Translations under genes and position numbers: made by a program
Part shown: piece after piece, positions 1,356-26,417 of the stretch
How positions within the stretch are numbered: the first letter of the stretch is position 1
How the letters are laid out: each line of letters opens with the position of its first letter
Notes under the pieces: model-generated
The model's database searches: none
What the model was told of the DNA's origin: nothing
What the model saw: the letters and a program-made list of their open reading frames with translations, nothing else
IMG/VR virus record: IMGVR_UViG_3300007354_000014
Span: 1-27,296 of that record
Length of the DNA stretch: 27,296 bases
From: a virus
Reading direction: 5' to 3' (one strand)

Positions 1356-2690
1356 CTACGTCTTGATAATATAATTCACGTTGACGTTCTTCGGACGGCT
1401 TTCGCTCGACGTTCTCGGCGTGCCGTTCGTACCATCGGTCACCGGCGTCGAACTCGGAACGTTTGCGACCAGCGTCGTTTCCGTAACACCGTACATTTTA
1501 TCACGCGCGCCGCTGGCGGCTCCGAAATAAGCAGGCGTCGTGTGCTTGTGACCCTGAAACGCGTCAGCTTCGTAAGAACCGACATTGTCGCCGGTCGCGC
1601 CGCCGGTCTTGAGCGCGGTACGTGTTCCGGCATTCGGATCGACCCCGGCGCCCCCATCTTTCCCGCGAAGGAACTGCCCGCGAAGGTCGGGAACGTTGAA
1701 ATGCGTGCCGTCAGCCGCTCCGAAACTCGTCCCGATCACCGCGAAAAGATCGGTATAATCCGCCCGGAGATACGAAGTACCGTTACAGAGCAGATACCCG
1801 GTAGGTGCGGCGGCTCCTCCGAACGGCAGGATCGTCCCGGACGGCACGAGAAACGCCGAACTTTTACCGCCGAGCATAATGGAGTTGATCGCGTCGAACT
1901 CCTCCGAAAGCGGAATATCGTCGCCGGAATAGGCGAACACAGTCTTGCATTCCCTGACAGCCGTGTATTGGTAAGTCCCGTTACTCCGCCGTTGGGAAAC
2001 AATGATGAAGACGTTAGTAGCGTATTCGACCCAATCTCCGGGATTTGCCGGAAACTCCGCTTCGAAAATAATGAAATCCGACAGCGAACGGTATTTCCTA
2101 TCCGCCATCGCTTTCAGGTTATCTTCGATCAGCGACGGGTAAACCCGAGTTCGGGCGATAAAGTTTCGGAAACTCCCGGCGGGGATGGTCTCACCGTCGA
2201 ATAGAGCCGAATTCTTGAATTGACGGCTATTGCCGATGATCTGTCCGCGGTCGATTTTCCCGCGCCTCGTTCCACCGGTACTGTCCGGGATCAGGAGCGT
2301 CATTCCCTCATCGGTGTAGACCGTAAACCAGAACGGAGTACCGTAAAGTTCGGAAATACTCTCTACCTTCCAATAGAACGTATCGCTCGTGCTGAAATTG
2401 AGGGTGAGAGCGATCCCGGCGAATACCGCGAACTCGGCGGCTGTTTTTAACACGGCCGGAAACTGGAAAAAGTCCAGGTAACGGATCACGGCCGCCTTTG
2501 CGTAAAGGTGCTCCTCGATTGTCCCGCTTTTCTTGATCGTCGAGAAAAAAAGTTCTTCAGTTCCATTGGGAGTTTGCACAACGGTATTATTTGCGTTCTC
2601 ATAGCTTGAGAATAGGCGTTCGAGGATCAGCCGCGACGCGTCGTTCGGTATCCGCGCCCCTTCCGCCTCCGGGCATACGAATTTCATCAT
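1356..2690 (-). CDS. Tail fibre with phage tail-collar domain
   Basis: Predicted distal tail fibre of 444 residues. The C-terminal third is a classic phage tail-collar domain: SGTILPFGGAAAPTGYLLCN, then DLFAVIGTSFG, then FNVPDLRGQFLRG. A variable segment follows with GHKH and the usual terminal NVNYIIKT. The first ~280 residues are not recognised and should connect to the tail. Two consecutive ATG codons open the frame; the second (2687) gives MKFVCPEAEG. The upstream purine stretch GGGGG is a modest ribosome-binding site. It sits downstream of the tail spike and upstream of the cargo genes. Host-receptor binding is the expected role. Confidence 0.85.
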   Translation of the reverse strand: MMKFVCPEAEGARIPNDASRLILERLFSSYENANNTVVQTPNGTEELFFSTIKKSGTIEEHLYAKAAVIRYLDFFQFPAVLKTAAEFAVFAGIALTLNFSTSDTFYWKVESISELYGTPFWFTVYTDEGMTLLIPDSTGGTRRGKIDRGQIIGNSRQFKNSALFDGETIPAGSFRNFIARTRVYPSLIEDNLKAMADRKYRSLSDFIIFEAEFPANPGDWVEYATNVFIIVSQRRSNGTYQYTAVRECKTVFAYSGDDIPLSEEFDAINSIMLGGKSSAFLVPSGTILPFGGAAAPTGYLLCNGTSYLRADYTDLFAVIGTSFGAADGTHFNVPDLRGQFLRGKDGGAGVDPNAGTRTALKTGGATGDNVGSYEADAFQGHKHTTPAYFGAASGARDKMYGVTETTLVANVPSSTPVTDGTNGTPRTSSESRPKNVNVNYIIKT

Positions 2691-2724: not shown

Positions 2725-4347
2725 TCATAGTACTATCACCTTGCTCGTCTTGTCCTGATAGGTCAGGCTCCCAACCATTTCCGAATCGTCCCATGCGTCG
2801 TAATTCCGCACTTCCACGTCGTCCGGCGTCTCGAATATCTGGAAGCAGAACGTGATTTCGTATTCTTTCCCGTTCCAGTAGTCGCCGAAGATGGTCGGAT
2901 AAAGACGGTTGTTATGCCATGCGAAGACTGTCTTTTCGGTTGCATCGAGGACATTCTCCGCGACGATTAAAAACGACGTGTCTTTCCGGTAATCATATTC
3001 GGTTTCGCCGTCATACAAACGGAGGTCGATGATCGTTTTCCCGACCAAAACCGCTTCTTCCTCCGTCCGGCGGATCACGAGGCAGTCGTCCATGTCGAAA
3101 TGCTTGTGTGCGTCGTCTACCGGATGGAATTCGACGAAATCGACCTTGTAGTATTTCCGGGTGATGCTTCCACGGACTCCACGGATCGTCTTGCGGATCG
3201 GCGTGAAAATGGCGGCGAGGTTAGAATAAAGCGCCGTATTCGTGATCTTAGCGAGATCGAGTTCCGGCCACGTAACGAGCGGGTCGAACACATCAAACAC
3301 CAGTGGGAAGGGTATAAGTTTGTAATTAGAAATATAATTAATGTATATTTCTACCCCTTTTGCATAGATTGGAATATTATTATTATTTAAAGGTGCAAAA
3401 CCAACTAATAAATTTTCGAGATAACAGTTTTGGAAATTTATAAATGTACCCGCCACACCCCCTTGAAATTGTATGTGCGCTTTGTCCGCATTATTACATA
3501 TAAAATAACAATTTTTATAAAGTCGTTCTTGGGCTGGGGCGGCCTGAAATTGACAATAATACGTTTCGCCCGTATCGATAATGAGCATGTTGTTTTCAAA
3601 GACGAATCCATCTGTACTGTACGTGAATTCTATACCGCAATAAGCCACTGACGATGAGGTTATTCGGAATATACACTGTTGTGCTAATTGAATATCCACA
3701 CCTACAGAATTACCTATCGTAATATCGCAAAACTGAAAACTTTGGCGTTTCGGCGGCGGTGAATAGGCAGTCGAAGTTAAAACGTAAATCGCATTAACAA
3801 CTATAAGTTTATCATAAAAAACATTGTGATTATATCGTAAGGTACCAAGATCGAGATGATCACTGGTTATCTCATTGTATACGTTAAGTTTAATTCCCAT
3901 AATGACGACAGCCGTATGGGCGCCCGTTTTGGTCGTATTCGCCGTAATATAAAACGGTCCCGTCGGATCGTTCGTTTTCCACACGACGAGGTATTTCCCG
4001 TTCGCGAGTGCCGAAAGGTCTATTTCCCCGCTCGCGGGCGCGTCCACAATCACATATCCTTCGCCGATGAGGCGAGTGTACTCCGCCTGCACATCGATAA
4101 AGCGGTTTGTAATTGTATCCGTCCAGAAATCGCGCTTTCTGAGGTTCTGGACTAAAAAATCTCTTGGATTATATTCCGGCATGACTATACCCTCCTTATT
4201 ATTCTGAAAACCCGTCACTCCGCAGTCGTCGAGCGCATCCGAGACGCCGCATCCGCCCAGCACCGCGATCAGCCCGAAGAATGCGGCCGCGCAAACCATC
4301 CATAAAACGATCCCTAAAATACCGCTCAAACATCCTTTTCTTTCCAT
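2725..4347 (-). CDS. Lipoprotein leader fused in frame to a tail-spike/beta-helix protein
   Basis: One continuous frame holds two apparent units. From MERKGCL (4347, preceded by GGGGAG) there is a basic N-terminus, a hydrophobic core and a lipobox LGGC with Cys33, so this would be a Gram-negative-type lipoprotein leader of 55 residues. The frame has no stop and runs into MPEYNPRDFLVQNL, which has its own strong AAGGAGGG and is the more likely start of the virion protein (4182). The main body has asparagine- and aromatic-rich rungs (KNCYFICNNADKAHIQFQGG, FINFQNCYLEN) typical of a right-handed beta-helix tail spike. The central part (about 3300-3900) is visibly AT-rich compared with both ends, as expected of an exchanged receptor-binding module. 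It lies between tape measure and collar fibre. A start at 4377 is also open but adds only ten residues without a better ribosome-binding site. A lost stop codon between two former genes is an alternative to a true fusion. Confidence 0.7.
   Translation of the reverse strand: MERKGCLSGILGIVLWMVCAAAFFGLIAVLGGCGVSDALDDCGVTGFQNNKEGIVMPEYNPRDFLVQNLRKRDFWTDTITNRFIDVQAEYTRLIGEGYVIVDAPASGEIDLSALANGKYLVVWKTNDPTGPFYITANTTKTGAHTAVVIMGIKLNVYNEITSDHLDLGTLRYNHNVFYDKLIVVNAIYVLTSTAYSPPPKRQSFQFCDITIGNSVGVDIQLAQQCIFRITSSSVAYCGIEFTYSTDGFVFENNMLIIDTGETYYCQFQAAPAQERLYKNCYFICNNADKAHIQFQGGVAGTFINFQNCYLENLLVGFAPLNNNNIPIYAKGVEIYINYISNYKLIPFPLVFDVFDPLVTWPELDLAKITNTALYSNLAAIFTPIRKTIRGVRGSITRKYYKVDFVEFHPVDDAHKHFDMDDCLVIRRTEEEAVLVGKTIIDLRLYDGETEYDYRKDTSFLIVAENVLDATEKTVFAWHNNRLYPTIFGDYWNGKEYEITFCFQIFETPDDVEVRNYDAWDDSEMVGSLTYQDKTSKVIVL
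4180..4193 (-). promoter_or_regulatory. Internal ribosome-binding site and second start of the tail spike
   Basis: In the gene's direction AAGGAGGG is followed by TATAGTC and ATG (4182-4180), an ideal spacing, inside the open frame of the lipoprotein-spike gene. It would give a 485-residue spike without the lipoprotein leader. Confidence 0.7.
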
Positions 4348-4390
4348 TTTAATAACTCCCCGGACACCAAACGTCACAGTGAGCGCTTGT

Positions 4391-4408
4391 CCCGACTTCC
4401 CTGTCGGG
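4391..4408. repeat. Short hairpin between tape measure and spike genes
   Basis: CCCGAC and GTCGGG are separated by TTCCCT. No T-run follows on either strand, so it is not a clear terminator. It lies in the gap between spike and tape measure and is not an R-family copy. Confidence 0.4.
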
Positions 4409-4429
4409 ATGTCTAACTGCGAGGTGCCC

Positions 4430-7400
4430 TTATAAATTATTCGTCTTATTCAATACCGCAGGCGCGTCCATATCCTCGCCGAATGCCTCGTTGAACGTCA
4501 GATGAATCCCGCCGTAAACGTTGCGCGTACTCCCAATCAACTGTTCCCTCACCCCCAACTGCGCCAATTCCGCCGCCGCCTGCGCCTGATTGTATCCCCG
4601 CTGTTCATACTCCGTCATCGCCCGGCGGATCTGATACAAGTTTTCGGTGTCGAAACTCGCGCCGTCGATCAATTTCCGCAGTTCCTCGGTAAGCGTGATC
4701 TGGTTCTGAATTTCCTCGGAGATGGATTTGTTCATATCGAGACGTTCCGCTTCGAGGTTCGCGATCTCGGTCTGCAGGCCGATCCAGTCGAGCGAACCTT
4801 CCTCCGCGAGCGCGAGAAGTTCCCGCGTCGCTTCGATCTGCGCGGCAATGTTTTCAAGCTGTGCCTGGTGATTTGCGAGGTACGCGTCCGACCCCTCTTC
4901 GAGCGACGCTTCCTGCGCCTGCAGGAGCGTCATCCGGGCGTCGAGGACGTTCAACGCGGTTTGCGGGTCGTAGGTCGAAATGTCTTCCCCGTACTGTTCG
5001 AGCGTCGCTATCGCGTCCGATATTTCACCCGACGCGTCTTTCAATGCGCCGAACTGATCGATCAGCGAGTCGATGCTTGTCCCGGCGGCGTCCATCCGCT
5101 CGTTGAACATATCCATCGCCTCTTTCATTCTTCCGCCGGTCATTTCCGACATCATCACGTTCCAGTCGTCCTGCGTGATAAATCCCCAGTCCCGCGCCTG
5201 CGAGACTGCTTTCTTAAAATTCTCACGGTCTTCGTCCCGCACCCACGAATTGAAAATCCCCTGATCCACGTCCACGCCGGACATCAGGTTCGAAATATCG
5301 GTGACGGATTTTTTCTTTTCCGCGAGATTGTCGATAGCCGCGTCCACGTCGTTCAGGTTCTGCACGATCCCGTCGGTATTGATCTCGACCTGATTCAGCC
5401 CCAGTCCCGCGAGAATCGTGTTCAGCCCGGCGACCGTTTCCTCGACATCGGTCTGCATGATTTCAAGGTTCGCTTCGAGCTGTACTTGTTCCGCTTCCAG
5501 CTCGTTCTTCGTCGTCTCGCCGTCATTGCTGTGAATCCGCTGGATCAGCGCGAGCGTGTCAGCGACAGCGCCCAATATCGTGTTGTACCTCTCGGTGATC
5601 GCGTTGAGCTTCTCGACCTGAGCTACGACACTTTCCCACCCCGACGACATCTTTAAGGGCGGAGTGAGCGCGGCGATTAACGCACCGCCGAGTTCGAGTA
5701 CGATTGCGATGATCGCGCCGATCGGGCCCAGAGCCGCCGCGCCTTCGACTTTCAGCATCGTCAGGATCACCGACAGGATTTCGCCCGTCTGCGCGATGCC
5801 GGACGCGACTTTTGATACTCCTTCCGGCACTTCCGCGCCGAAAAGTTCGGTCAGGCTTTTAACCTTGCCGAGCAGTTCCTCGACCTGTTCGAGGGTCACT
5901 GCCTGTTCGTCATTCACGGTTCTAATCATTCCCTTATGATCTGATACCCGTTCGATGATACGTCCTTCGATATTAAGGAGGGATTCTGCTGTTTTTCCGA
6001 TTTCAGCTTCGAGTTTGGCTTGTTTTTCCTTGTTCTCAAGGATTGCCTGTTCGTTTTTGTAGTATTCCGTCGTATCGACAGTCAGTCCCGCGCGAATTTT
6101 CAGAAGAACTGCTTCCTGATCTTTCAGGTTTTGGATCAGTTCGATATTCCAGACATTCTGGGTTTTCAGGTACTCGTATTGCGCTTTAAGGCGTTCGAGT
6201 TCCATTTCTTCTGGCGTTTTTCCTTTATTATCATCCGTCGGATATGTAGTTTTTGGTGGAGTTGTACCCTTAGTATCTTTTAAGTTTTTTACTGTGTCTT
6301 GGAGTTTCTTTAAGAATTCTTCTTTACCGGCCATCGGACCGAGTTGCTCTGAAATTGCATCGATAGTAAACATTCCATCTTTAATAGCCACTGCGAACTG
6401 AGTATAAAACTGGTTGAGATCGCCAAGCATCTTAGATTCATTTTCGCCCATTTTCACTTTCATGGCAGTCATGTTTTTCATCGACATGTCATAAAAGTTT
6501 TTGAATTTGAATCCGGGCTTATCGGAAAATGTTTTCTCGGCAAGAACCTGATAAGTCATATTATCGAATACAAACTGGGTTGAAATATCTTTTACACCCT
6601 TGTCGTATTGTTTCTTCATATCTACAAGTTTTTTCTGATAGGCCTCGAAATATTTTTTAGCCTTATCGAAAACTGCGTCCGGTTTTCCAGATAACTCATA
6701 GACACCATATCCTTGACGCGGATCGTAAGGAACCTGAACTTTCGCGATTTCAGAATATGTTTTCTCGTACATTGCCTTAAAATCGACGAGAGCATTTTCG
6801 AGCTGGCCTTCGAGCAGGTATTTCGTAGCTTCGAGGGTTGTTTTTTGGGATTCGGTCAGCTTACCGTGTGATTTTGCCAGTTCATCGACCACATCTTTAT
6901 ATTTGATGTAAGTAGAAATCAAAGTTCCTGTCACTGTGTTTAAGGATTTCTCTTCTCCGAATGTTTCGTTTATCCGCGATATGATCCCGCCGAAAATCGG
7001 CATCAGCTTTTGCCCGAGCTCGACCTTCATATCCTCGAGATGTGCGTTTAGGATTTTCTGTTGATTTGCGAAACTGTCTTCCGTCCTCTCGAAATCGCCC
7101 ATCGCTTTCGCGCTCTGCTCCATAATCAGCTTCAGCGTCACCTGTGCCTGCGTCTGCTTGTCGAGGCCGTCCTTTCCGACCTTGTACCCGAGCGCGAGCG
7201 CCTTCTGTTTCAGGTCCGTTTCGCTGATTTTAACACCTAAGCTGACGAGCGCGTCACGTTCGCCGAGCATCGCCTTGGTGATAATTTCCGATGCGTGCGC
7301 GGCTCCGCCCTGCAGGTTCTGGAAGCTGGCGAGATCGGCGGAAAGCTTCTGCACTTCCATCGATAGATCGAGCGCGGAATCCTCCGAGAATTGAAATCCT

Positions 7401-7783
7401 ACCAGCAGGTCGCCGGTCGCGGCGAGGAGCTTTTCCGCTTCCATCGCGGACATCCCGTAGCCGTTCTTGAGTTCGGTTGCCATTGCTTGCGCGGCGGACT
7501 CGATGCTCGAGAACACCGTGAGAAACTTCGAGTGCGTTTCCTCGAACTGGCTCGCTTTGTTGACCGCGTCGACAATCACTTCGCTTGCGTTGCGGAACGC
7601 TTCGCCGATCATCTGCCCGGCCATCACCGCCCCGGCCTGCAGGTTCATAATCCCGCCGAGCGCTTCATTTTCAGCCGCCTCACCAAGTCCGCCGGTCATA
7701 TCCCGCACTTTCCCCATCGCCTGCTCGTACTGTCCGCTTTCAAGAAGTAACCTGATTTCGACAATTCTACTGTCTAACACCAT
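4430..7783 (-). CDS. Tail tape measure protein
   Basis: The longest gene in the window (1117 residues), following the chaperone-type gene, as tape measures do. Its length sets tail length and it is expected to thread the tail tube. The N-terminal third has the alpha-helical tape-measure core: FEETHSKFLTVFSS, a GMSAMEAEKLLAATGDLL segment, then LGVKISETDLKQKALALGY and KLMPIFGGII. The middle and C-terminal parts are long heptad-rich coiled coils (EELLGKVKSL, NLEAERLDMNKSISEEIQNQ). A hydrophobic stretch near residues 675-705 (LGPIGAIIAIVLELGGALIA) could insert in the host membrane. The start overlaps the previous gene by 17 bases and has GCGGGGG upstream. The part from about 5920 to 6960 is more AT-rich than the flanks, suggesting an exchanged segment. 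Confidence 0.9.
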   Translation of the reverse strand: MVLDSRIVEIRLLLESGQYEQAMGKVRDMTGGLGEAAENEALGGIMNLQAGAVMAGQMIGEAFRNASEVIVDAVNKASQFEETHSKFLTVFSSIESAAQAMATELKNGYGMSAMEAEKLLAATGDLLVGFQFSEDSALDLSMEVQKLSADLASFQNLQGGAAHASEIITKAMLGERDALVSLGVKISETDLKQKALALGYKVGKDGLDKQTQAQVTLKLIMEQSAKAMGDFERTEDSFANQQKILNAHLEDMKVELGQKLMPIFGGIISRINETFGEEKSLNTVTGTLISTYIKYKDVVDELAKSHGKLTESQKTTLEATKYLLEGQLENALVDFKAMYEKTYSEIAKVQVPYDPRQGYGVYELSGKPDAVFDKAKKYFEAYQKKLVDMKKQYDKGVKDISTQFVFDNMTYQVLAEKTFSDKPGFKFKNFYDMSMKNMTAMKVKMGENESKMLGDLNQFYTQFAVAIKDGMFTIDAISEQLGPMAGKEEFLKKLQDTVKNLKDTKGTTPPKTTYPTDDNKGKTPEEMELERLKAQYEYLKTQNVWNIELIQNLKDQEAVLLKIRAGLTVDTTEYYKNEQAILENKEKQAKLEAEIGKTAESLLNIEGRIIERVSDHKGMIRTVNDEQAVTLEQVEELLGKVKSLTELFGAEVPEGVSKVASGIAQTGEILSVILTMLKVEGAAALGPIGAIIAIVLELGGALIAALTPPLKMSSGWESVVAQVEKLNAITERYNTILGAVADTLALIQRIHSNDGETTKNELEAEQVQLEANLEIMQTDVEETVAGLNTILAGLGLNQVEINTDGIVQNLNDVDAAIDNLAEKKKSVTDISNLMSGVDVDQGIFNSWVRDEDRENFKKAVSQARDWGFITQDDWNVMMSEMTGGRMKEAMDMFNERMDAAGTSIDSLIDQFGALKDASGEISDAIATLEQYGEDISTYDPQTALNVLDARMTLLQAQEASLEEGSDAYLANHQAQLENIAAQIEATRELLALAEEGSLDWIGLQTEIANLEAERLDMNKSISEEIQNQITLTEELRKLIDGASFDTENLYQIRRAMTEYEQRGYNQAQAAAELAQLGVREQLIGSTRNVYGGIHLTFNEAFGEDMDAPAVLNKTNNL

Positions 7784-8423: not shown

Positions 8424-8431
8424 AAAACCTG

Positions 8432-12633: not shown

Positions 12634-12639
12634 TTTTAT

Positions 12640-15937: not shown

Positions 15938-18802
15938 TTAACCGCTCTTTTTATTTATCTTGTCCATCGCTCCTTTCTTGAAAATCAAATATCCCATCCT
16001 GTCGTTATCGATACTTTTGTTAGGGTAAATTGTCTTCACCGCCGGAATACCTTTGTACTGGTGCACAATGACTTCAACCTGTTTCCCGTTGATCATTTTC
16101 ATGTATTCGTAGCTTAAGACCGTCTTCTTCTCCTTCGCGATAAACTGGATATTCATCCAGATTTCGTCCGGGTCATCTAAAATGTTCTCCAATCCGTCGA
16201 GCAGTCCCAGACGGTTCTTATCCTTTTCAATATGGCTGACGAACTCTTTAGGATCAAGGTATACAGGCTTTCCGAGCGCGTTCTCAAAATACGATTTCAC
16301 CGCAAGTTTCTCCGCGAGCATTTTTTCACCTGAATTCGCGTCGTACTTTCCAAGTTTCATTTCCGATTCGTAACCTGAGTCCGCGAACTTTTTCAAACCC
16401 TTCGCATGCCAGTTCTCCGTTTCCAAAGGTATCCGCTTAGGTTCGCTTTCCGGTCTGAGTTCTTTCAGCGCTTTCAGCTTCTCCTGTATCCACGCGTCCG
16501 ATTTCACTTCCGCCGGGTTGTGATCGAAACCTTCGTCCGGCATCAGGGGCTTCGACGGATCGATATTGCCCGGTACGATCCCCATCTCGGTCAACGTGTC
16601 GAGGCGTTCGGCATAGGACGGTATCCCCGTTCCGAGATTATCCGGGTCGAACCCGAGAGCTTTCACCTGCGACTTTGTCAACGCCCGCACGAAGCACCGG
16701 CACCGGAACCCGTTAGGCGGATACCAAGTCTGCCAGAATACGTCGTCGTGCCTGCGGATCACGCCGTGCATCGCCGCGTGTCCCGGACGGACTCTGTCGT
16801 CGCCGACCGTGAACAATCCCCAGTACGGCAGAAAGTCCGCGACCTTTTTCATCTGCTCGTAACGCCCGACCGAGTAGGCGGTCTGCAGGTTCTGCAGGTA
16901 GGTCAACCGCAGGTTGTTCTTCGCGAGGATCGCCGGGTCTATTCCGGCTTTGAATTCCTCGTAAGTCTGGCCTTCGGAAAGCGCGACGGAAAGCCGGTCG
17001 AGGATTCCCTGCGCGGTTTCCGCAGACGAAATCCCGCTGACGGCGAACGCGTAGTTCTTCTGTTCCGCAGACAGCAACGCGAAATCGTCAGCAGACATCG
17101 CGATCTTGGAAGTCATGAACTTCTTCGCGCCGGAGTATTCCATCATCCCGGAGAAACCTGCCCCGAGCGGAGCCGAGGGGTCGGCGAAATCCGCCGTGTT
17201 ATACCCCGTCACCTGCCAGCGTCCCAGCGCGTTCATCGTAATGAGCGACCGCGCGAGAAAATCTGACGCCCCGCTGTCATTCTGAGCCTGCCGAAGAATG
17301 TCCTTTGTCGTATTACCGACCCCCACGATGGGGGAAGTGCCGTCGATGCCATGGATGGCATGAAGACGGCCGGTTTTTACTATTTTTTCCGCCGCTTCGT
17401 CGAAATTCGACGAGCTTTCGATTGCTTCTTTCAGTCCGTTTACGAAACCGTCGAAGTACCCGTAATAATCTTCAAATCCCTTTTCCGCGAGGTCTTCGGC
17501 TTCCTGTGCATCGCGTTCCGCCTCAGCCTCCAGTTCCTGAAATAATGTCAGATTATCCTGTTTACCGGGCTTTTTTTTTTCGGCTCCTACCTGACTTCCT
17601 TCGGCGAAGCTCGCTGTTTTTTCTACCGGCGGAACTACGGATCGTTTGAGTACATCACCCTTCACAAACCCGTATTCGCGCTGGAGATACTCCTCGGACA
17701 GATCGTATCCCATCTGGTATATTTTCAGGTCGCGTTCCGCGCGCTCCGTCTGGACATTAGCTTCCTCGAAAAATTCGAAGACCGGATAATTCCCGACTTG
17801 GAAATTCAGGTCTACCAAACGCCGGATCAGGCTGTTCATCGTTCCCGAGATCAGGCGTTTATCGCTTTCCTGAATATCCCCCCTGACGGTCTCGGCCATG
17901 TTTTCATTGCCGAGTTTTCCCGGTGTGGAGTCCGCGGTCGCGGAATGTCCGGTGAGAGTTTTCGAGATTGACGCATCCGCCCAATTCACCAGTTCGATAA
18001 ACATATCCGAGGACGCTTTTTTATCGACCCCGAGAGTTTCCGGTTTTTCTTCGCCCTCGAACACTCCCGCGCCGGAAGACTGGATTTCGTACAGCATATC
18101 GAGCAACTGCCCGCGTTCGGTATCGCTGAGCGATCTCTGCGAACGGATAATAAGCGGGTCGGTACCGAATTTTTCGATGAACGCGATCCAGAATTTCAAA
18201 TCGCCCTTTTTAAAATGTACCGGCCAGAAACAGCGGGCGAGTTCGCCTTCGCCGTAAGGGTTTCGGTAGCTCGCGCGGTACTGTACCAGTTCGACCTCCC
18301 GGTTTAATCCCGTTGTCACGACAAGATCGCCGTCGGTCGGATTGTTTTCCGATAAGAAACGGAGCCGGTTTTGATTATCGAAGATAAAATTCTCGGCTGG
18401 CCGTCCTTCTATAATCCCGTAAACAATCCGTTCGCCGTCGCGGGCGAGCACGGTTTCGATGGGAGAATACCCCATCCACACCGCTTCGAGGATGTCGCGG
18501 TATAATCTTTCTATATTGAGCGCGTTCCATTGCTCGGTAATAAAGTCCATCGCGCGGCGGTCTGCGCCCCGGTTGTTTTTAGCGGGGACGATCCGGTATT
18601 CGCACGACATCACCCCGGCCTCGCGGGACACGATACAGGAATTGACCTGGCTGTCATACGCGAGCTCGCGGAACAGCGATACGTCGGCGCCCTTCGACTC
18701 GAGGATTTTATCCGGGTTCGGGAGCTGGGCGGTCAATTTTAGGAAACCCTGCCAGCTCCTGTCGCGGGTGTAAAGGGATGTAAATTTGTTTTTATCCGCC
18801 AT
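15938..18802 (-). CDS. Portal (Mu gp29-like) - MuF (gp30-like) - nuclease-like fusion protein
   Basis: 954 residues from MADKNKFTSLYTRDRSWQGF. This ATG has GAGGA upstream, whereas a TTG 48 bases earlier has none. Residues about 1-400 are a DUF935/gp29-type portal: SCIVSREAGVMSCEYRIVPA, LEAVWMGYSPIE, FIEKFGTDPLIIR, ISKTLTGHSATAD. Residues about 560-705 are the MuF minor head domain with RPGHAAMHGVIRRHDDVFW and YPPNGFRCRC. The last ~160 residues (796-954; VLSYEYMKMINGKQVEVIVH, GIPAVKTIYPN) resemble the barnase/EndoU/colicin/RelE-like (PBECR) RNase domains that terminate many MuF proteins; this last call is moderate. In Mu, portal and F are two genes. Repeat R9 and a second repeat encode about residues 477-510 (GTSPIVGVG and DILRQAQND) in the linker between portal and MuF. 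Confidence 0.85.
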   Translation of the reverse strand: MADKNKFTSLYTRDRSWQGFLKLTAQLPNPDKILESKGADVSLFRELAYDSQVNSCIVSREAGVMSCEYRIVPAKNNRGADRRAMDFITEQWNALNIERLYRDILEAVWMGYSPIETVLARDGERIVYGIIEGRPAENFIFDNQNRLRFLSENNPTDGDLVVTTGLNREVELVQYRASYRNPYGEGELARCFWPVHFKKGDLKFWIAFIEKFGTDPLIIRSQRSLSDTERGQLLDMLYEIQSSGAGVFEGEEKPETLGVDKKASSDMFIELVNWADASISKTLTGHSATADSTPGKLGNENMAETVRGDIQESDKRLISGTMNSLIRRLVDLNFQVGNYPVFEFFEEANVQTERAERDLKIYQMGYDLSEEYLQREYGFVKGDVLKRSVVPPVEKTASFAEGSQVGAEKKKPGKQDNLTLFQELEAEAERDAQEAEDLAEKGFEDYYGYFDGFVNGLKEAIESSSNFDEAAEKIVKTGRLHAIHGIDGTSPIVGVGNTTKDILRQAQNDSGASDFLARSLITMNALGRWQVTGYNTADFADPSAPLGAGFSGMMEYSGAKKFMTSKIAMSADDFALLSAEQKNYAFAVSGISSAETAQGILDRLSVALSEGQTYEEFKAGIDPAILAKNNLRLTYLQNLQTAYSVGRYEQMKKVADFLPYWGLFTVGDDRVRPGHAAMHGVIRRHDDVFWQTWYPPNGFRCRCFVRALTKSQVKALGFDPDNLGTGIPSYAERLDTLTEMGIVPGNIDPSKPLMPDEGFDHNPAEVKSDAWIQEKLKALKELRPESEPKRIPLETENWHAKGLKKFADSGYESEMKLGKYDANSGEKMLAEKLAVKSYFENALGKPVYLDPKEFVSHIEKDKNRLGLLDGLENILDDPDEIWMNIQFIAKEKKTVLSYEYMKMINGKQVEVIVHQYKGIPAVKTIYPNKSIDNDRMGYLIFKKGAMDKINKKSG
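17161..17182. repeat. Short CCGAGCGGAGCCGAGG-type repeat in portal fusion
   Basis: CCCCGAGCGGAGCCGAGGGG encodes SAPLGA in the fusion protein. Similar sequences occur at about 8570-8589 (intergenic) and 25548-25564 (end of the radical SAM gene), so this is a second small dispersed repeat family. Confidence 0.55.
17277..17304. repeat. Dispersed repeat encoding DILRQAQND
   Basis: TCATTCTGAGCCTGCCGAAG and the following AATGTC match a short palindromic repeat type seen in many bacterial genomes, which translates as ILRQAQND. It lies next to R9 inside the portal-MuF linker. Confidence 0.5.
17317..17370 (-). repeat. Palindromic repeat R9, inside the portal fusion
   Basis: First stem CCCCCA/TGGGGG, outer GCCGTC/GACGGC enclosing ATGCCAT/ATGGCAT. 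It is in frame and encodes the GTSPIVGVG peptide. Its transcription-downstream end reads GTCGG without GAGG. Confidence 0.85.
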
Positions 18803-18958
18803 TTTTCCGGTTCCTCGTGTTTTCCGTTTTGTATTTTTCGCGGTATTCAATTATTCGTGTCGTAATTCTTTATCCTATCGTTAGTTAAACTATATTTAAA
18901 CCGCTTTTAAAGGCTCTTAAATTACTACCGCATATCTTTATCCTGTATAGCTTTTATC

Positions 18959-25219: not shown

Positions 25220-25530
25220 TACTTTCCTTCCTTATCGTCCGCCTCATTGCCATCCATGGCATCGGCGGAACTAACTCGTCCCTGCGTGTCGCATACCGTG
25301 GCAATGAATTTCACGGCCATCGCGGCGACCTGAATTGCCTCATCCCTCATCCGGCGGATCGAGCCTACGGACTTGTTATTCTTGATTTCATGCCATAGCT
25401 CGTCCAATTCCTCGAGGATCACACCGTACCCCTCGTGCGCGGACGCGAATCCGCCGAACTTCTTTTCCGCCCAAGAAAGCTCATTCTTAATTCGCGCGAA
25501 TATCTCTTCTAAATGCTTATCTTGCGTCAT
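25219..25530 (-). CDS. MazG-like all-alpha NTP pyrophosphohydrolase family protein
   Basis: 103 residues from MTQDKHLEEIF. ATG at 25530 has GGAGG three bases upstream and overlaps the radical SAM stop as ATGA; the frame is open for another 15 codons upstream without a better site. ILEELDELWHEI (about 37-48) supplies the acidic EExxE metal-site helix, and RMRDEAIQVAAMAVKFI a second helix with ExxQ. This is the pattern of MazG-like phage pyrophosphatases, which act on nucleotides. A family match is likely but the substrate is unknown. Confidence 0.6.
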   Translation of the reverse strand: MTQDKHLEEIFARIKNELSWAEKKFGGFASAHEGYGVILEELDELWHEIKNNKSVGSIRRMRDEAIQVAAMAVKFIATVCDTQGRVSSADAMDGNEADDKEGK

Positions 25531-26417
25531 ATTCCCTCCAATCGGTTGCCGAGCGGAGCCGAGGTGACCATCCACGCGTCCGGGTCGAAATGGATCGGGT
25601 CGATATCCAGACCCTCGGCGTAAGGCTGTAAGTCCTTCTTGATGTAGTACCCTGTGTGTTCGGCATCCCGAAACGTATCAACTATATCTCTGAGCATTCC
25701 GCGATAATCCAACGGAGCGGTTTTCCCTTCATGGTTGAGTTTCCCGATCTTGAATACATCTACTAATCCGGCATAAAGGCAATCGTAGATGATATTCACT
25801 GTGATATACGGATCGATCACCGGCTCCATCGACGCCCACGTGTGAATACGATTCATTTTCAGCGTTTTGAATACTTCCATGCGCTCTTGATATGGAGCCG
25901 CTTCAGGTTCGTTCTTCGTGATCCATCCAGAATCGAAACTCGTCAGCGTCTGGCCGACCATGATTCGACCCCCAAGGATGGGGGAAGTGCCGTGCGAAGG
26001 CACGGATGCCGCCCGCCTTCCACCTTCGGTAGAAGGTGGACAGGAAGCCGGCCTGTCTCCGAACTTGCGGAACAGGTCGAGGTCGCGCAGGAGACGATTT
26101 CCGCCCTTGGTCAATACCGCTACCGGCGTGTTCGACTCGAGAAGGAGCTTGAGGGCGGCGCGGGTGTGCCAAGTCTGGGCGTCGCGGCGGCAGTACGGGT
26201 CGCACGCGAAACTGAGCAAGACCTGTTTGTCGGCCTTGAGCGTCTTAGGAAGCGTCCGCATCCGGGGAACGGCGTACTCCTCACGGGTCAACCGCATCGA
26301 CGCGGGACCGTAGCAGTACACGCAACCGTGGTCGCACCCGATGTAATGATTGAGCGCGTAAGGGGAATACTCTCTCGCCCGGCCTTTCGGCTCGTAGATT
26401 TTAGCGATGGTACTCAT
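25527..26417 (-). CDS. Radical SAM protein, spore photoproduct lyase-like (SPL) family
   Basis: 296 residues. The cluster motif CDHGCVYC (28-35; Cys28, 32, 35) follows YALNHYIG, as in the SPL-like/Rv2578c radical SAM group. SFACDPYCRRD, PVAVLTKGG and MEPVIDP mark later strands of the barrel. It should bind a 4Fe-4S cluster and S-adenosylmethionine; the substrate is unknown. Between KFGDRP and MVGQTLTSFD, a loop of about 35 residues is encoded by repeat R12 (GTSPILGG frame), apparently tolerated. The last residues (SAPLGNRLEG) come from a second dispersed repeat. It overlaps both neighbours by ATGA. Confidence 0.8.
   Translation of the reverse strand: MSTIAKIYEPKGRAREYSPYALNHYIGCDHGCVYCYGPASMRLTREEYAVPRMRTLPKTLKADKQVLLSFACDPYCRRDAQTWHTRAALKLLLESNTPVAVLTKGGNRLLRDLDLFRKFGDRPASCPPSTEGGRRAASVPSHGTSPILGGRIMVGQTLTSFDSGWITKNEPEAAPYQERMEVFKTLKMNRIHTWASMEPVIDPYITVNIIYDCLYAGLVDVFKIGKLNHEGKTAPLDYRGMLRDIVDTFRDAEHTGYYIKKDLQPYAEGLDIDPIHFDPDAWMVTSAPLGNRLEGI
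25548..25564. repeat. Short repeat at the end of the radical SAM gene
   Basis: GCCGAGCGGAGCCGAGG encodes SAPLGN near the C-terminus, and the gene stops shortly after. It is the same type as 17161-17182 and 8570-8589. Confidence 0.5.
25965..26060 (-). repeat. Palindromic repeat R12 with a nested hairpin
   Basis: R2-like copy: CCCCCA...TGGGGG stem, GTGCCG, inner GGCAC/GATGCC part, and the terminal AAGCCGGC. Between the inner and outer arms is an extra perfect inverted repeat CCACCTTC-GGTA-GAAGGTGG. It is in frame in the radical SAM gene. Confidence 0.75.

Follow-up and report, generated by a model that had tools for sequence, protein, structure and literature searches.

One minus-strand reading frame of the window (the whole stretch of DNA analysed here, a virus record of 27,296 bases) carries, as far as can be read from its letters, two starts with a ribosome site before each, and a diverged relative has the same arrangement. 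We lean slightly towards the reading that two products are made from this one frame and that one of them is targeted to the envelope. The frame (4377..2725) comprises 550 aa from a GTG and 540 aa from ATG 4347. It runs from a lipoprotein-type leader into a putative tail spike without a stop codon, which confirms the description of a lipobox leader read in frame into the spike in the earlier note. The leader sequence is MERKGCLSGILGIVLWMVCAAAFFGLIAVLGGC continued by GVSDALDDCGVTGFQNNKEGIV, after which comes the spike start MPEYNPRDF...; the parts of the locus are collected in Table 1.

Table 1. Positions of the leader, the spike and the neighbouring features in the window; Shine-Dalgarno energies are given for the window and the relative.
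Feature	Position	Strand	Remarks
Tape measure protein gene	4430..7783	(-)	upstream of the leader
GC hairpin	4390..4409	(-)	between the tape-measure stop and the leader; seen in the sequence
Leader Shine-Dalgarno GGGGAG	4356..4361	(-)	8 nt 5' of the leader ATG; energy -7.6 (relative, -9.4)
Leader	4183..4347	(-)	55 codons, ATG 4347-4345; lipoprotein-type signal peptide, in frame with the spike
Lipobox cysteine codon	4251-4249	(-)	residue 33 (Cys33) in VLGGC; retained in the relative
REP-like repeat core	4220..4248	(-)	encodes GVSDALDDCG (last codon partial), directly 3' of the Cys codon
Internal Shine-Dalgarno AAGGAGG	4191..4197	(-)	within the leader frame, NNKE codons; energy -12.7 (relative, -9.3)
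Putative tail spike	2725..4182	(-)	internal ATG 4182-4180 is codon 56; 485 aa; stop at 2725
Collar-domain tail fibre gene	1356..2690	(-)	downstream of the spike

The label "tail spike" is taken from gene position, between the tape measure and the collar-domain fibre. Searches with the fused protein and with the spike alone gave no match of the spike to a Pfam, PHROG or NCBIfam family, and the AlphaFold model, which was built from two sequences, had a mean pLDDT of 32.6 and was unusable. The terminator scan found no terminator at the GC hairpin 4390..4409. The promoter scan of 4100-4800 returned one match per strand, with 0.4 expected, and the minus-strand match lies within the tape measure.

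The relative was reached through its terminase. A search with this protein led to a contig of IMG/VR (G002) whose terminase is 64% identical (L043); in the tape measure, identity reaches 42% within the first 777 residues and 36% over the full length. At the end of this contig the same leader stands in frame with the first 28 spike codons. The same phage is found in JAGVBZ010000048.1, a contig of the Brevinematales bacterium DeMMO6_14 MAG (L051). The two records are 99.99% identical over 13,460 bases and are counted here as one phage; both may trace to the same site or reads. In the MAG contig the whole fusion can be read, 627 aa from leader to spike without a stop. When the leader of the window was compared with that at L051:13204-13374, 29 of the 54 aligned residues were identical, and leader and spike start together were 51% identical over 79 residues. 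The spikes are 43% identical over the last 289 residues and 37% over the first 68, and their middle barely aligns. Both phages have the same leader start, the lipobox Cys and the internal AATAATAAGGAG...ATGCCGGA.

It had been proposed in the earlier note that related phages be searched for a stop between leader and spike. Such a stop is absent from the one other distinct phage that bears the leader, so that the frame is open in 2/2 distinct phages with the leader, which is known from these two only. The alternative offered there, that a stop codon had been lost between two neighbouring genes or that the sequence was in error, thus fails this check, as far as one other phage allows, since the diverged relative is also without a stop. 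The window's own junction is present in one assembly only, as the overlapping contig G001, identical to the window across the shared 19.6 kb, ends within the tape measure. However, the junction of the relative is likewise open, both in the IMG/VR contig and in the MAG contig, and an error of sequencing or assembly at this place can practically be dismissed.

Shine-Dalgarno strength was taken as the duplex energy with the 16S end. The strong internal start noticed earlier was borne out by this measure: at -12.7, its AAGGAGG is the second strongest among the 29 listed starts. Over all 645 ATGs of the window, on both strands, the median duplex energy is -3.3 and 5.7% reach -9; the energies of all four starts of the two phages are well beyond that of the median ATG. 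In the relative, the internal Shine-Dalgarno (-9.3) is not stronger than that of the leader (-9.4). The lipobox was judged by a rule of the PROSITE PS51257 type, coded for this analysis, which we take to require K or R in the first 7 residues, an uncharged stretch, a lipobox, and Cys at 15-35. The leader satisfies this rule in the window and in the relative, with Cys33 in both. Among the 738 start codons of the window that are followed by 40 open codons, the rule picks out only one, the leader itself; in the relative's record G002 it picks out 9 of 860 starts, some of them nested and one of them the leader. By itself the lipobox rule is not rare everywhere. Nor is an open frame 5' of a gene start rare when taken alone, at least 54 open codons being present upstream in 2 of the 27 other gene starts of the window. 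The arrangement stands above chance on account of the diverged relative, which shares the leader, the Cys, the internal Shine-Dalgarno and the open frame.

The two fusions were combined into a profile, with which 13 genomes of the MAG's order and 392 genomes of its phylum were scanned. Both scans hit the same four genomes, at five spike loci: the fusion in G004, which is the relative's MAG, and a single leaderless spike in each of G004, G010, G011 and G012 (L062-L065). G004 thus contains both kinds of spike, fused and leaderless; a third match in this genome was weak (C8, E 0.076). Among 6 spike loci, with that of the window, the leader is present in 2 and absent in 4. The leaderless spikes belong to the same protein family as the fused ones and occupy the same place, after a tape-measure-like gene and before a gene starting MRFIC, but they have no leader. 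In 4/4 a Shine-Dalgarno is visible before the start, and the only 5-13 open codons upstream of that start contain no start codon. The proteins used to align these starts had been pre-cut at their start codons, and the distance to a shared Asp was counted on the sequences instead. L062-L065 start 44, 44, 44 and 46 residues before this Asp, and the internal ATG lies 47 residues before it in both fused phages. Because all four leaderless spikes begin at most 3 residues from the place matching the internal ATG, this ATG is probably the original start of the spike.

Directly behind the lipobox Cys codon lies the core of a REP-like repeat, in which 26 of 29 bases are common to window and relative. 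The corresponding stretch of the relative matches dispersed sequences in G010, G011 and G001, and members of this repeat family are scattered through genomes of the relative's order. With up to 2 mismatches, the core GGCATCTCGGCTNCGCTCGA has 2, 10, 9, 0, 2 and 1 copies in G004, G010, G011, G012, G001 and G002, respectively, counts that include the leader itself at one G004 place and at the G002 place; the reversed control gave 0 in all six. A shorter core with up to 3 mismatches has 7 copies in the window, against 1.84 expected, and 2 of 100 shuffles reach 7. In the relative, the codons that follow match a second repeat type (ACCTCGACAAGCTCGGGATGACA and similar), which forms a tandem array elsewhere in G004. 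Going by these sequences, a host-type REP-like repeat probably made the fusion: through its arrival in the phage ancestral to both, a small lipoprotein signal would have become linked to the spike gene, and the joined gene would have been retained since its origin.

The leader does not evolve evenly along its length. In a comparison of the two phages, in which the counts are small, the sequences short and dS near saturation, dN/dS is 0.57 for the whole leader and 0.15 for codons 1-18, where 13/18 residues are identical. Over codons 1-32 there are 15 identical residues, a figure matched by 0.065% of random placements of an equal number of changes, and the in-frame ratio is 0.36 as against 0.89 and 2.77 in frame-shifted controls. 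For the hydrophobic core (codons 19-32) dN/dS is 0.98; residues change there and hydrophobicity stays. In the hydrophobic cores of signal peptides residues are free to change. The part comprising the Cys and the REP-like repeat has a dN/dS of 2.16. Synonymous change in codons 33-45 amounts to 1.3/9.8 sites, compared with 7.5/10.8 in codons 1-18; since it is nearly absent, codons 33-45 are conserved as DNA, and the repeat rather than the protein may explain conservation after the Cys. Differences by codon position (22, 13 and 27) are weakly uneven. Under neutral drift, the leader frame would be open with a probability of 0.10 at distance 0.82 and of 0.18 at 0.41. Judged from these substitutions, clear protein constraint is limited to the first 18 leader codons.

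If both starts are used, as we infer, the internal ATG (4182) would give an ordinary cytoplasmic spike that goes into virions, and translation from the upstream ATG (4347) would add a lipoprotein signal peptide to the N-terminus of this protein. By way of the long form, a share of the spike would pass through Sec, be lipidated at Cys33 and be held in the host envelope. The anchored spike might then cover the phage's own receptor late in infection and so spare the progeny re-adsorption to the dying cell or to debris. Such receptor blocking is suggested by analogy, and we consider it rather unlikely. Since the gene sits among late structural genes, it would probably have no role in a resting lysogen. 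The scheme in its entirety, with two starts giving a virion spike and a lipid-anchored copy that occupies the phage's own receptor, and with a host-type REP-like repeat as the creator of the second form, is tentative and unlikely to hold in all its parts.

Two products, which the earlier note had thought possible, are the reading best supported by the comparison, as the relative keeps all parts and 4/4 leaderless starts agree. They account both for the constraint on the leader and for the internal Shine-Dalgarno. If the internal start alone were used, nothing would explain why codons 1-18 are constrained and why the leader start was kept. Against two products it must be said that the leader-bearing phages are two, and that common ancestry alone could explain their shared open frame. 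The number of phages speaks also for a relic, in which the repeat removed the end and the stop of a small lipoprotein gene, the leader is tolerated with little or no translation, and the internal ATG makes the only relevant spike. A REP-like repeat between signal and spike, the existence of related spikes without a leader, and a core and post-Cys part free of protein constraint are all in keeping with such a relic. Nevertheless, codons 1-18 are under protein constraint between the two fused phages (dN/dS 0.15), and the start, the ribosome site, the hydrophobic core, the lipobox and the open frame were retained in both, so that we regard a mere relic as possible, though unlikely.

The conserved leader and the open frame would also suit a spike made in the long form only, that is, an envelope or virion lipoprotein of this clade in which the internal Shine-Dalgarno is a leftover. 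This would leave unexplained a site of that strength (-12.7, rank 2 of 29 listed starts) which is retained in the relative and matches the starts of the leaderless spikes, each of them at most 3 residues from the internal ATG; we judge it improbable. The leader might, on the other hand, matter as a small peptide in itself, as a membrane or lysis protein or a translation-control leader, with the read-through into the spike as a by-product. It is short and has a conserved n-region, and no lysis gene was recognised in a scan that covered some of the phage's proteins. However, a stop of its own is absent in both phages, and neither the 392 Spirochaetota genomes (L067-L075 compared) nor the viral scan yielded a convincing leader-like gene with a stop; a small peptide is, in our opinion, a poor candidate. 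Two products thus remain the reading that we prefer.

Further searches returned no second relative with the leader. Direct searches with the fused protein or the tape measure found none in the viral-contig collection, and those with the fused protein of the window or of the relative found none in the phages collection. Scans with tape-measure, fused and leader alignments gave the same relative only, the viral scan for the leader using two short peptide patterns. The leader alone matched 18 records of the phages collection at E 3-4, in one stretch mostly annotated SbcD, which was put down to chance. In a collar-domain search 38 loci with fibre relatives were obtained, some of which also match a tape measure or a methyltransferase distantly; at E 0.1, neither leader nor spike was matched at any of the 38. 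The leader profile matched 99 of the 392 Spirochaetota genomes at E <= 0.5, with 1.2e-37 for the known locus and 0.0026 for the next; on comparison, the weak loci L067-L075 were judged to be chance matches of hydrophobic sequence. Matches of the leaders to Pfam KxYKxGKxW_sig (E 0.33) and to an NCBIfam CobD family (E 0.027) were far below the cut-offs. It was also asked whether the leader goes with the tape measure rather than with the spike. Of 14 tape-measure matches, the 12 other than G004, the relative, and G105 were compared, and neither leader nor spike was matched in any of these 12. The lipobox test at these loci was applied to the first start of each ORF of at least 45 aa. One 55-aa ORF, about 870 bases past the tape measure (L119), passes the lipobox rule and was rejected, as it is not hydrophobic like the leader.

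Among the top literature matches, no phage spike with an in-frame lipoprotein leader was found. In the lambda holin gene S (S105/S107), a single frame yields two products because it has two starts; their N-termini differ by two residues, and this tunes lysis. Two N-terminally different products from one frame are likewise predicted here, but the two forms of a structural protein would differ by an entire signal peptide, not by two residues. The T5 Llp / Cor family consists of superinfection-exclusion lipoproteins; Llp, a small protein in its own right that is coded beside the gene of the receptor-binding protein, binds FhuA and is described as early, and the benefit ascribed to exclusion is that adsorption is not wasted on infected cells and debris (PMC9586334). 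The likeness lies in a small phage lipoprotein that is placed next to a receptor-binding gene and blocks the phage's own receptor, the blocking being supposed here by analogy. In contrast to Llp/Cor, there is no small separate lipoprotein gene: in window and relative the lipoprotein signal and the putative spike (485 aa in the window) form one continuous frame, among late genes. A further parallel is provided by retroelement-diversified surface lipoproteins, binding proteins that are surface-displayed via a lipoprotein signal; the phage targets are without the signal peptides of the bacterial ones (PMC6199706). Here, the gene concerned is a phage structural gene. Should the scheme hold, an added signal peptide would let a phage block its own receptor with the spike itself, in place of evolving a separate blocking protein, and a host-type repeat would act as the joint of a new gene. 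For annotation it is a warning that a gene caller would choose one of the two starts and miss the other.

The window phage is, on its gene content, Mu-like (Mu transposase, Mu-type portal and F protein) and probably temperate, because Portal_Mu and Phage_Mu_F domains are present in the window, and the overlapping contig G001 codes for DDE_2 and Mu-transpos_C (a Mu-type transposase), an AAA protein and an HTH_3 protein. Its host is probably a Brevinematales spirochaete, since the relative lies in such a MAG, to which its contig was assigned by binning, spike relatives occur in the same order, and G001 has a P13-type gene. This gene (L042:11257-11811), whose product is a membrane protein of the Borrelia P13 type, follows the HTH_3 repressor-like gene directly and is a candidate lysogenic-conversion gene. 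In G002 a 172-aa protein without a Pfam match stands behind the HTH_3 gene.

Several other features were observed. A single gene of the window (15938-18850) combines a Mu-type portal, a Mu F-like head protein and a PBECR2 nuclease-like domain, and a radical-SAM-like protein at 25527-26417 falls slightly below the Pfam cut-off. Downstream of the collar-domain fibre lie a 77-aa protein and a D12 methyltransferase. The 77-aa protein (1116-1349) resembles the extreme end of anaerobic ribonucleotide reductase (NRDD, residues 2-41); its residues 54-74 come from a copy of a repeat family and lie outside the match to L051. Members of this family, 27-64 nt long and with hairpin-like parts, occur at 1126, 8426, 9547, 9837, 10433 and 12244 and further at 12635, 13599, 17316, 23056, 23936 and 25966, and are probably REP-like elements or regulatory hairpins. 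Those at 8426, 9547, 13599 and 23936 end just before a minus-strand gene start, with the Shine-Dalgarno within the repeat. On contig 31 of G004, the relative's MAG, a REP-type unit of 22 nt, ACCTCGACAAGCTCGGGATGAC, is repeated in tandem at about 113255-113502 (L132).
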